A stretch of DNA of 64,000 nucleotides from Flavobacteriaceae bacterium MAR_2010_188. GTDB taxonomy: Bacteria > Bacteroidota > Bacteroidia > Flavobacteriales > Flavobacteriaceae. Positions within the stretch are counted from its first letter, which is position 1; every line of letters starts with the position of its first letter. A model generated the notes under the pieces. That model was given only the letters and a program-made list of their open reading frames with translations. It was not told the origin of the DNA and ran no database searches. Made by a program: the position numbers and the translations under genes. Shown here in pieces: positions 8,479 through 11,259 of this stretch. The DNA is taken from assembly GCA_900104375.1 (NCBI GenBank), contig LT629302.1, positions 3,702,480 to 3,766,479 of the forward strand. Reading direction: 5' to 3'.

Positions 8479-8487
8479 TAAATAAGA

Positions 8488-8582
8488 CATTAGTCATTAG
8501 TGATTAGTAGTTAGACGAATCTGTTTGAAATTGAAAAGTTTAGGATTCTAACAACTAAAAACTGACAACTATAAACTAAAAA
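8488..8582. repeat. AT-rich imperfect inverted repeat between rpsM and rpsK
   Basis: The left arm (8488-8514) is made of iterated ATTAGT/GATTAGT-like units, and the right arm (8548-8582) of AACTAAAA/AACTGACAACT-like units. The right arm is an imperfect reverse complement of the left: GTCA...TTAGTAGTTAG against CTAACAACTAA...TGAC. The RNA could form a long bulged hairpin just ahead of rpsK. It resembles low-complexity repeats I associate with flavobacterial intergenic DNA. Its function is unknown. Confidence 0.5.
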
Positions 8583-8584
8583 GT

Positions 8585-8968
8585 ATGGCAAAGTCGAGTA
8601 CTAAAAAACGTAAAGTTATTGTTGACGCAATAGGTGAGGCACATGTAAATGCTTCCTTCAACAATATTATTATCTCTTTAACCAACAAAAAAGGCGATGT
8701 TGTTTCATGGTCTTCTGCTGGTAAAATGGGCTTCAGAGGTTCTAAAAAGAACACTCCTTATGCAGCTCAACTAGCTGCTGAAGATGCAGCAGGTGTTGCT
8801 AAAGATGCAGGCCTTAAAAAGGTAAAAGTGTATGTTAAGGGACCAGGTAATGGTAGAGAATCTGCAATAAGATCTTTGCATAATGCTGGTATCGAGGTTT
8901 CAGAAATCATCGATGTTACTCCTTTACCTCATAATGGATGTAGACCTCCAAAAAGACGTAGAGTATAA
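8585..8968 (+). CDS. rpsK: 30S ribosomal protein S11
   Basis: S11 is in the platform of the small subunit and contacts mRNA near the E site. The 127 residues contain [20 protein letters not shown] near the start and the C-terminal signature [18 protein letters not shown]. Length is normal. A 106-base gap with an inverted repeat separates it from rpsM, and a 122-base gap with structured RNA separates it from rpsD. Confidence 0.98.
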
Positions 8969-8971
8969 TCA

Positions 8972-8989
8972 ATGTTCGGTTTCGAACAT
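8972..8989 (+). other. Perfect 7-bp hairpin just after rpsK
   Basis: ATGTTCG (8972-8978) and CGAACAT (8983-8989) are perfect complements around the loop GTTT, three bases after the rpsK stop. The following sequence is AT-rich without a proper T run, so termination would be weak at best. It may protect the rpsK end of the message or attenuate transcription into rpsD. Confidence 0.45.
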
Positions 8990-9018
8990 CTTTATATAAT
9001 TATTTAATAACAAGTATA

Positions 9019-9074
9019 GAGGGAACGATGGTCATCGAAGGATAAGATTAAGACCTTAATTCATGATTACCCTC
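9019..9074 (+). promoter_or_regulatory. Multi-stem element ahead of rpsD (candidate S4 mRNA leader)
   Basis: A closing stem GAGGG (9019-9023)/CCCTC (9070-9074) encloses two small hairpins. The first is CGAT-GGTC-ATCG (9026-9037) and the second TTAA-GACC-TTAA (9048-9059). The loops GGTC and GACC are exact complements and could form a kissing or pseudoknot contact. The element ends 16 bases before the rpsD start. S4 represses the alpha operon in E. coli by binding an mRNA pseudoknot, so this is a likely S4 site by position and shape. The binding itself is inferred. Confidence 0.6.
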
Positions 9075-9090
9075 AGAATAAACAAAAGAA

Positions 9091-9696
9091 ATGGCAAGAT
9101 ATACTGGTCCTAAAACTAAAATAGCCCGAAAATTCGGTGAAGCTATTTTTGGTGACGACAAAGCATTCGAGAAAAGAAATTATCCTCCGGGTCAACACGG
9201 TAACAACCGTAGACGTGGTAAAAAATCTGAATACGCAATCCAGTTAATGGAAAAGCAAAAAGCTAAATATACCTATGGGATTTTAGAGCGTCAGTTCAGA
9301 AACATGTTTAAAAAAGCTACCTCTTCTCCAGGTATTACCGGACAGGTTTTACTTCAATTGGCAGAATCTAGATTAGATAATGTTGTTTACAGAATGGGAC
9401 TTTCTCCTTCTAGAAGCGGAGCAAGACAATTAGTATCTCACAGACACATCACAGTTAATGGTGAATTGGTAAACATACCTTCATACATTCTTAAGGCTGG
9501 TGACAATGTTGGTGTTAGAGAAAAATCTAAATCTTTAGAATCTATTCAGAGCTCGTTGACTAACAGTAGTCAAGTTTACGAATGGATTACTTGGAACAAG
9601 GACACTATGCAAGGAACATTTGTTTCTGTGCCAGAAAGAATCCAAATTCCAGAAAAGATAAATGAACAATTCATCGTTGAATTATATTCTAAATAA
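9091..9696 (+). CDS. rpsD: 30S ribosomal protein S4
   Basis: S4 nucleates assembly of the 5' domain of 16S rRNA and is an autogenous repressor in E. coli and Bacillus. The 201 residues start [20 protein letters not shown] and contain the S4 RNA-binding domain ([20 protein letters not shown] near residues 95-114). Length is normal. The 122-base upstream gap carries two folded elements, unusual for the interior of this operon. Confidence 0.98.
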
Positions 9697-9716: not shown

Positions 9717-10709
9717 ATGGCAATATTAAATTTTCAGAAGCCGGACAAAGTAATCATGATTGATTCTACCGAGTTCGAAGGTAAATTTGAGTTTAGACCT
9801 TTAGAACCAGGCTATGGACTAACAGTAGGTAATGCTTTAAGAAGAGTTTTGTTATCTTCATTAGAGGGATTCGCAATTACTTCAATCAGAATTGAAGGAG
9901 TTGATCACGAATTTTCAACTATTTCTGGTGTAGTAGAAGATGTAACCGAAATGGTTTTAAATCTTAAACAAATCAATTTTAAACGTCAGATTGACGAAAT
10001 CGATAACGAATCGGTCTCAATTTCGATCAGCGGACAAGATCAAATTACAGCCGGAGATTTTCAGAAATTCATTTCTGGTTTTCAAGTTTTAAATAAGGAT
10101 TTGGTTATATGTAACCTTGACCCTAAGGTGAGCGTTAATATGGAAATCACTATCGAAAAGGGTAGAGGTTATGTTCCAGCAGAAGAAAATAAAAAATCAT
10201 CTGCACCAATTGGTACGATCTTTACTGATTCTATATACACACCAATTAAAAATGTTAAGTATAGCATAGAAAATTTCCGTGTAGAGCAAAAGACCGATTA
10301 CGAAAAATTAATTTTCGAAATTATCACTGATGGCTCTATTCCTCCCAAGGATGCGTTGACAGAAGCTGCTAAAATCTTAATCCATCACTTTATGCTTTTC
10401 TCTGATGAAAGAATTACTCTTGAAGCAGACGAAATCGCTCAGACTGAAACATATGATGAGGAATCTTTGCATATGAGACAGTTATTGAAAACTAAACTAG
10501 TAGATATGGATCTTTCAGTACGAGCATTAAATTGCTTAAAAGCTGCAGAGGTAGATACTCTAGGTGATTTAGTTTCTTTCAACAAGAACGACTTGATGAA
10601 ATTTAGAAACTTCGGTAAGAAATCATTGACTGAACTAGAAGAATTGGTTCATGTTAAAGGTTTAAATTTCGGAATGGACTTAACAAAATACAAATTAGAT
10701 AAAGATTAA
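9717..10709 (+). CDS. rpoA: RNA polymerase alpha subunit
   Basis: The alpha dimer is the scaffold on which RNA polymerase assembles. The 330 residues show an N-terminal dimerisation domain ([20 protein letters not shown] near residues 29-48) and a C-terminal DNA- and activator-binding domain (near 255-320) with two helix-hairpin-helix motifs, including [16 protein letters not shown]. It follows rpsD by 20 bases in the alpha operon. Confidence 0.98.
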
Positions 10710-10779: not shown

Positions 10780-11259
10780 ATGAGACACGGAAAAAAAATC
10801 AACCATTTAGGTAGAAAAACAGCCCACAGAAAATCAATGTTGGCAAATATGGCTTGTTCTTTAATTGAGCACAAGAGAATCAACACAACAGTTGCAAAGG
10901 CTAAGGCCTTAAAGCAATTTGTTGAGCCAATGATTACTAAATCTAAAGAAGATACAACTCACAATAGAAGGATTGTATTTGCGAGACTTAGACAGAAAGA
11001 AGCTGTTGCAGAACTTTTTAGGGATGTTGCCGCTAAGGTTGGTGATAGACCAGGAGGTTACACTAGAATTATTAAATTAGGTAATAGACTTGGTGATAAT
11101 GCGGATATGGCGATGATAGAACTTGTTGATTACAATGATATCTACAACGTTAACACTCCTGCTAAGAAAACTACACGTAGATCTAGAAGAAGTGGTACTA
11201 GTACTAAAACGGAAAAACCTGTTGTTTCATCGAAAGAAACTAAGCAAGAGGAGGAATAG
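10780..11259 (+). CDS. rplQ: 50S ribosomal protein L17
   Basis: L17 surrounds the peptide exit. The 159 residues start [20 protein letters not shown], the family signature, and hold the usual core to about residue 120. A Lys/Thr/Ser-rich tail of about 35 residues follows ([18 protein letters not shown]), making it longer than the E. coli protein (127), as is common in Bacteroidota. It is the last gene of the alpha operon and is followed by a strong terminator. Confidence 0.97.

Follow-up and report, generated by a model that had tools for sequence, protein, structure and literature searches.

The element at positions 9,019 to 9,074 of the window (the whole 64,000-nt stretch of DNA that was analysed) belongs to an already known RNA family, the S4-Flavobacteria ribosomal protein leader (RF03141), and its existence lies beyond chance. 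It is best explained, with considerable confidence, as a larger form of this flavobacterial leader, in which a single hairpin would allow ribosomal protein S4 to repress rpsD. Comparison of related leaders establishes the existence, position and lineage range of the hairpin, as well as its fold with the exception of one GG/CC step; judged by these relatives, the real fold is one long imperfect hairpin, not two kissing hairpins. The element is probably an S4 target, a putative one for which no similarity to the S4 site of 16S rRNA has been reported. The refinements beyond the known family concern an outer stem (P1), the register of the inner helix, variant leaders, and a possible pairing with the rpsD coding region (P0). 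These corrections provide a better model of a catalogued r-protein leader, and offer a concrete idea of how S4 might halt translation initiation in bacteria that do without Shine-Dalgarno sequences.

A catalogued leader between rpsK and rpsD

When the whole 64-kb window was scanned with Rfam 15, the sole match at gathering thresholds was RF03141, at positions 9030-9068 of the forward strand (score 40.9 bits, cut-off 35.2; E = 1e-4 over the 64 kb), with model positions 1-33 spanned completely. This match, together with the covariation described below, indicates that the structured element is real beyond chance. The folding energy of the single sequence is unremarkable (z = -1.4; 18 of 200 shuffles equally good). 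The original prediction of a structured r-protein leader ahead of rpsD was borne out by both lines of evidence, and the search with Rfam covariance models that it had recommended revealed that the leader is already catalogued. Rereading of the sequence confirmed its letters and coordinates exactly: GAGGG at 9019-9023 and CCCTC at 9070-9074, CGAT-GGTC-ATCG at 9026-9037 and TTAA-GACC-TTAA at 9048-9059, and a distance of 16 bases (9075-9090) to the rpsD ATG at 9091. The gene order at the locus is rpsM, rpsK, leader, rpsD, rpoA, rplQ, and the genes downstream of the leader are:

9091..9696, forward strand: rpsD, ribosomal protein S4, the presumed regulated gene and ligand (NCBIfam PRK05327 and rpsD_bact, both above cut-off)
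9717..10709, forward strand: rpoA, second gene of the presumed regulated unit
10780..11259, forward strand: rplQ, third gene of the presumed regulated unit (TIGR00059, L17, above cut-off)

The rpsD product was recognized as S4 by PRK05327 with 281.5 bits against a cut-off of 116, and is closest to S4 proteins of Flavobacteriaceae such as Psychroserpens, Winogradskyella, and Aequorivita. The rplQ product is an L17 of 159 aa, in which the bacterial L17 model covers residues 7-117; it also matches the NCBIfam L17 "sunset domain variant" below cut-off (143.7 bits against 280).

The RF03141 family was described as a predicted leader by Eckert and Weinberg in 2020 (PMC7247131), where Table 1 lists it as S4, with rpsD, rpoA, and rplQ, in Flavobacteria, with the rating Y and a ligand assigned on the principle "Prior". 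The passages of that paper on S4 leaders present the motif as a hairpin and report that it does not meaningfully resemble other S4 leaders, the E. coli-type and the Bacteroidia leaders among them, or rRNA. No experiments on the RF03141 leader, including binding or expression studies, were found in the open-licence literature, which is weak evidence of absence. The window element and RF03141 share the same hairpin and the same gene context (rpsD-rpoA-rplQ), and the score exceeds the gathering cut-off. The catalogued model has 33 positions, omits P1, and draws the inner helix as AAGG/CCUU, whereas the structure proposed here contains P1, a GAA/UUC helix, and a UUAA bulge.

Fold of the leader

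For comparison, 130 rpsD leaders of the same family were fetched (30 plus 100), of which 128 were parsed and, together with the window, gave a set of 129; L046 and L081 stand outside these rows, though both carry the element. The 130 loci, most of which scored over the cut-off, were drawn from 176 genomes of the family that matched at E<=1. Alignment A1 was made with MAFFT and contains 124 sequences. A larger set of 245 leaders was gathered by a pattern that fixes GG, CC, AA, and most adjacent letters. Among the 46 loci without this core, the sole visible leader was L162, which the distance limit had excluded, and the core was present in 80 of 80 loci chosen by the S4 protein alone. The hairpin comprises the following features:

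9019..9023, forward strand: 5′ strand of the outer stem P1, GAGGG; own-partner helix and covariation, absent from the 33-position Rfam model
9024..9028, forward strand: asymmetric internal loop joining P1 to P2; in the window its unpaired bases are all in the 5′ strand
9029..9035, forward strand: 5′ strand of the main helix P2, UGGUCAU, pairing with 9063-9069; Rfam pairs and double-sided changes
9036..9036, forward strand: bulged C of P2, usual and dispensable; C in 124/124 sequences of A1
9037..9039, forward strand: continuation of P2, GAA, pairing with UUC at 9060-9062
9040..9041, forward strand: GG of the GG/CC step, pairing with 9054-9055; invariant in 124/124
9042..9053, forward strand: apical loop, which begins with A and ends with G or GA; 4-15 nt among 129 leaders
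9054..9055, forward strand: CC of the GG/CC step, pairing with 9040-9041; invariant
9056..9059, forward strand: 3′ bulge UUAA, U[U/G]AA in all but one leader; candidate heart of the S4 site
9060..9062, forward strand: 3′ strand of the P2 continuation, UUC; pairs in 245/245 leaders
9063..9069, forward strand: 3′ strand of P2, AUGAUUA, with the same evidence as its partner
9070..9074, forward strand: 3′ strand of P1, CCCTC, with the same evidence as its partner; 16 nt before the ATG

The closing stem GAGGG/CCCTC, already part of the original prediction, is genuine and covaries in relatives. A P1 helix of at least 5 bp was formed by a leader's own strands in 121/129 cases, compared with 42% (at most 49%) when partners were swapped among genomes. 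In the larger set, where 217 of the 245 leaders had the canonical core, the corresponding values were 204/217 and 45%, with 103 distinct 5′ strands. In A1, both the covariation score (0.478 compared with 0.262 in shuffled alignments) and the proportion of paired cells (75.3% compared with 62.3%) were matched by 0 of 500 shuffles, whereas two coarser measures did not separate P1 from the shuffles (pairs with double changes, 417/500; pair types, 17/500). Versions of P1 slid by one column still scored 0.32-0.37, probably because MAFFT leaves the stems partly one base off-register. P1 is thus an addition to the Rfam model, and may already be drawn in the figures or supplements of PMC7247131. Between P1 and P2, the 5′ side of the internal loop measures 4-8 nt in 127/129 leaders, usually 6, and the 3′ side 0-1 nt in 124/129.

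The whole Rfam structure was paired in 97.9% of the cells of A1, compared with 92.3% after shuffling and at most 49% when slid. Within the P2 core, GGUCAU/AUGAUU in the window and typically GAUUAU/AUAAUC, all six pairs had sequences changed on both sides (n = 124). The bulged C is replaced or absent in variant lineages, and P2 ends 15-27 nt before the ATG in the 129 leaders.

Above the bulged C, comparison with relatives supports a GAA/UUC helix, followed by the 3′ bulge UUAA and the GG/CC step, as a better fit than the AAGG/CCUU register of Rfam. All three GAA/UUC pairs can form in 245/245 of the pattern-selected leaders, a constancy that arises partly by construction because the gathering pattern fixes part of those letters. 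Paired substitutions were found from G-C to A-U in 24 leaders, which represent few events since they fall mostly on one branch, and from A-U to G-C in L075. In the Rfam register, which leaves AAUU unpaired, one A-U pair is broken in 16/245 leaders. Both registers can be formed in the window, with pair probabilities of 0.75-0.83 for GAA/UUC and about 0.1 for AAGG/CCUU.

The GG/CC pairing is beyond the reach of covariation because it is invariant. Its probability in the window alone is 0.11, and a competing UAAG/CUUA stem is favoured at 0.71-0.85; the minimum free energy (MFE) structure of the window uses this competing upper stem, which was counted against the best explanation. The competitor would not be available to many short-loop relatives, as the apical loop measures 4-7 nt in 67/129 leaders. 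The bulge reads UUAA or UGAA in 244/245 leaders and CUAA in L146, in a set whose gathering pattern allowed only T or C, then T or G, before AA. The near-invariant GG, CC, and U[U/G]AA are natural candidates for contact with S4. In three variant leaders located before rpsD, an extra hairpin is inserted in the apical loop, with the arms GGCAG/CTGCC in L134, GGCAGGAT/ATCCTGCC in L263, and CGCAAT/ATTGCG in L239; the apical loop therefore tolerates large insertions.

Inside the closing stem, the original prediction had placed two 4-bp hairpins whose complementary GGTC and GACC tetraloops kiss. The leader ahead of rpsD and its closing stem stood, but the two hairpins and the loop-loop contact are not kept in relatives. 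The compensatory-change test, which had been named beforehand, refuted the idea on the 124 sequences of A1: the 12 hairpin and loop-loop pairs remained at shuffle level by all five measures, with 65.0% of cells paired (65.0% shuffled) and a covariation score of 0.107 (0.109 shuffled), values equalled by 290 and 313 of 500 shuffles. All four pairs of the first stem were possible in 4/129 leaders and the second stem in 39/129, the exact GGTC/GACC loops occurred in the window only, and the complete two-hairpin fold could be made only by the window and L099. When 9019-9074 is folded, no pair of the two small hairpins exceeds a probability of 0.006, and these pairs compete for the same letters as the conserved helix. 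The two-hairpin fold of the window has an energy of -5.4 kcal/mol, kissing pairs not counted, compared with -10.3 kcal/mol for the conserved hairpin and -13.3 kcal/mol for the MFE, both single-hairpin folds.

Several observations could be read in favour of the kissing fold. The letters that it needs are present in the window, and P1 is common to both models. When wobbles are admitted, all four loop-loop pairs are possible in 16/129 leaders and three of four in 92/129; on the alignment, pairing reaches 82.7% of cells in the second stem and 73.5% in the loops, and the full set of 12 pairs surpasses versions slid by 1-3 columns (65.0% compared with at most 44.0%). Wobble pairing between the loops is common because the letters are conserved for another helix, and the slid versions are exceeded because the pairs were copied from one row over conserved letters. 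The kissing fold was consequently rejected as extremely improbable, on its rarity among the 129 leaders, its lack of covariation, and its pair probabilities; the small hairpins and the complementarity of their loops seem to be coincidental features of the window sequence.

Distribution and relation to other S4 leaders

RF03141 exceeded its cut-off in 150/199 genomes of the family and gave a match at E<=1 in 176/199. A sample of 28 genomes with a weak or no match (20 of the 23 without a match and 8 weak ones) was examined, and rpsD was located in 21 of these: 13 loci had a variant leader, one (L146) a degenerate leader, and 7 no leader. The leaderless genomes are all small (1.3-2.2 Mb) and have a short rpsK-rpsD gap. 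The variant leaders have a P2 without the bulged C, and follow the form ..YUARAGGA...GACCUUAAUUUAR... None of 14 variants reached the Rfam cut-off, so that this branch is missed by it, while our own 63-position covariance model (R1) recovered 11/14 at E values up to 2.

In 395 genomes of the class, R1 gave matches at E<=0.1 in 34, of which 31 lie before rpsD: 14 belong to the family, and three other families account for 17. The remaining three are weak (G202, G213, and G351; E = 0.0016 to 0.0174), had no rpsD start within about 1.2 kb, and were dropped as false. No leader was found at rpsD in 20 genomes without an R1 match, drawn from 19 other families (two of them from one family of the same order), where 19 loci were scanned with Rfam and R1, and L196 by pattern. 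Of 19 additional rpsD loci, taken from other families within the order, one (L320) carried a leader and 18 lacked it. Given its absence from these 18/19 loci and from 7/21 within the family, rpsD works without the leader in many genomes.

In E. coli, the S4 leader of the alpha operon is a pseudoknot that precedes rpsM and includes the rpsM ribosome binding site. The window element shares with it the presumed repression by S4 of part of the same operon, but lies ahead of rpsD instead of rpsM, and the only pseudoknot proposed here, the loop-loop pairing, does not covary. The S4 leaders of Firmicutes and Fusobacteriales, whose ligand is presumably the same as that of the window element, contain a GUAA that mimics 16S rRNA, in a context defined in the figures of that family; GUAA is absent from the A1 consensus, and the conserved bulge in the 245-leader set is UUAA or UGAA. 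The S4-Bacteroidia leader is likewise a hairpin before rpsD-rpoA-rplQ in a related lineage, although its authors' discussion of S4 leaders reports no meaningful similarity between the two (PMC7247131). A scan of rpsD loci from other families of the class, 19 in all, produced no Rfam match through which the two could be compared.

Mimicry of 16S rRNA found no support in the window element, which shares no words with the 16S locus of its own genome beyond the level of shuffles: 16 shared 7-mers were found, compared with a shuffle mean of 11.4 and a maximum of 24, in a crude count over the whole 4.5-kb locus including its flanks. Single-word matches such as AACGATGGTCA, at 16S position ~800, lie outside the region that we take to be the S4 site. 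The genome contains one complete 16S rRNA gene (2321807-2323325) and a second, apparently broken copy on the reverse strand (G000:C1:1580015-1581229), in pieces corresponding to model positions 9-873, 875-902, and 934-1228, the middle one below cut-off.

Probable control by S4 and possible pairing with the start of rpsD

In the proposed mechanism, S4 present in excess over 16S rRNA would bind the invariant GG/CC-UUAA end and freeze the hairpin. Since 122 nt separate rpsK and rpsD, rpsD probably needs its own initiation. Shine-Dalgarno pairing is absent from most flavobacterial start sites, where upstream adenines (-12/-13) and a low degree of structure take its place (PMC6847099, PMC9976891), so a clamped stem with its base 16 nt from the AUG would be expected to hinder loading of the 30S subunit at rpsD. 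An rpsD'-gfp reporter is available for the laboratory strain Flavobacterium johnsoniae (PMC9976891). Expression of rpoA and rplQ would be lowered through their coupling to rpsD.

Alternatively, a factor other than S4 might be the ligand (a helicase, an RNase, RpoA, or L17), and the hairpin would then act in RNA stability or processing. The genes rpoA and rplQ lie directly downstream of rpsD, and Eckert and Weinberg note that, in operons with several genes, the ligand is poorly predicted by the gene immediately downstream (PMC7247131). In gamma-proteobacteria and Firmicutes, according to the same source, S4 is confirmed as the ligand of independent leaders, and the element stands directly ahead of rpsD in 31/34 class-level matches, the other three being weak. 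A ligand other than S4 is accordingly considered improbable.

Transcription attenuation, in which S4 binding would toggle a terminator, was also considered. A terminator-like 7-bp hairpin (ATGTTCG-GTTT-CGAACAT, with a weak T-rich tail) is present between rpsK and the leader at 8972-8989, but its position is upstream of the leader, the rpsK-rpsD gap of L163, a genome of the same genus, does not contain it, and no U-run follows P1/P2. Because no terminator-like site was found 3′ of the leader hairpin in the window, attenuation was rejected as very unlikely. Unrelated palindromes occur near the same spot in L014, L015, L018, L133, and L141.

Repression by S4 at the level of initiation could involve the coding region itself. 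We tentatively propose, as a possibility somewhat short of even, that in the lineage of the window the flank AGUAU(A) and codons 4-5 of rpsD form a helix stacked on P1, leaving the AUG in a 25-nt loop:

9013..9018, forward strand: speculative 5′ strand of P0, AGUAUA, complementary to rpsD codons 4-5 and directly 5′ of P1
9100..9105, forward strand: speculative 3′ strand of P0, rpsD codons 4-5, UAU ACU, which are nearly frozen

S4 binding might then close the initiation region directly. If P0 is real, the S4 leader in the window's branch of Flavobacteriaceae would be larger than catalogued and include the gene start, and would form a Shine-Dalgarno-independent lock on the start codon, suited to bacteria that generally do not use such pairing. 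The other reading, which on balance seems a little the likelier to be true, is that S4 clamps the P1/P2 hairpin only, and that the frozen codons 4-6 have no connection with the AGUAU flank, both having been inherited within a clade.

The tight match between flank and codons argues for P0. Among the 245 distinct leaders, AGTAT was accompanied by TATACT in 129/132, the exceptions being L079, which has ACC, and L160 and L168, which are outside the family and carry AGTAT far from the core. Three flank motifs were distinguished, and 84/245 leaders lack all of them; TATACT occurs in 7 of these 84, or in 7/63 once the 21 leaders without Thr at codon 5 are set aside. Synonymous changes were counted on a tree of 143 full rpsD genes, of which 78 taxa have AGTAT (including L160 and L168) and 43 are motif-free. 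In the AGTAT taxa, codons 4, 5, and 6 changed 1, 1, and 2 times, compared with 14-19 changes at six other Tyr codons, 10-31 at other Thr codons, and 4-27 at other Gly codons; the fewer motif-free taxa showed 7 changes at codon 4 and 4 at codon 6. At four named Salegentibacter loci, the flankless L272 has ACA, and the other three have both the flank and ACT. The MFE structure of 8965-9150 forms P0 stacked on P1 with the AUG looped out, whereas the centroid structure does not.

Several results point instead towards separate inheritance. P0 alone is thermodynamically weak, with a mean pair probability of 0.24 (0.09 after synonymous recoding), and appears in the MFE structure of 19/129 leaders. 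The flank is missing in the motif-free third of the set described above, and Zunongwangia L273 has ACT without it. The Lys codons 8 and 10 are nearly unchanging as well, with one synonymous change each in the AGTAT taxa, and codons 2-3 (GCA AGA) are nearly frozen with or without AGTAT, the 143-gene tree showing 0-2 synonymous changes there. On the tree, changes in the flank motif outnumber those in the codon (14 compared with 5). Among the four supported independent pairs that differ in flank, from which the ambiguous motifs AGTAA and ATATC were left out, the codon changed in the same direction in 1-2, in the opposite direction in 0, and was unchanged in 2-3; with only four such pairs p cannot reach 0.05, and the tree test therefore lacks power. 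Fourteen leaders with a GACC core and a non-ACT codon were found among 397 genomes, of which two keep AGTAT, L345 (from the genome of L079) and L346, while L339 has TGTATA with ACG.

Further upstream, TTAGT-type units are repeated in the gap between rpsM and rpsK (8479-8584), forming the run TTAGTCATTAGTGATTAGTAGTTAG; a second run farther along, CTAACAACTAAAAACTGACAACTA, resembles an approximate complement of the first. When up to 3 mismatches are allowed, the TTAGTCATTAGTGATTAGTAGTTAG pattern has five matches in the genome, two of them overlapping, compared with one for the reversed pattern, and this run is possibly a dispersed short repeat.
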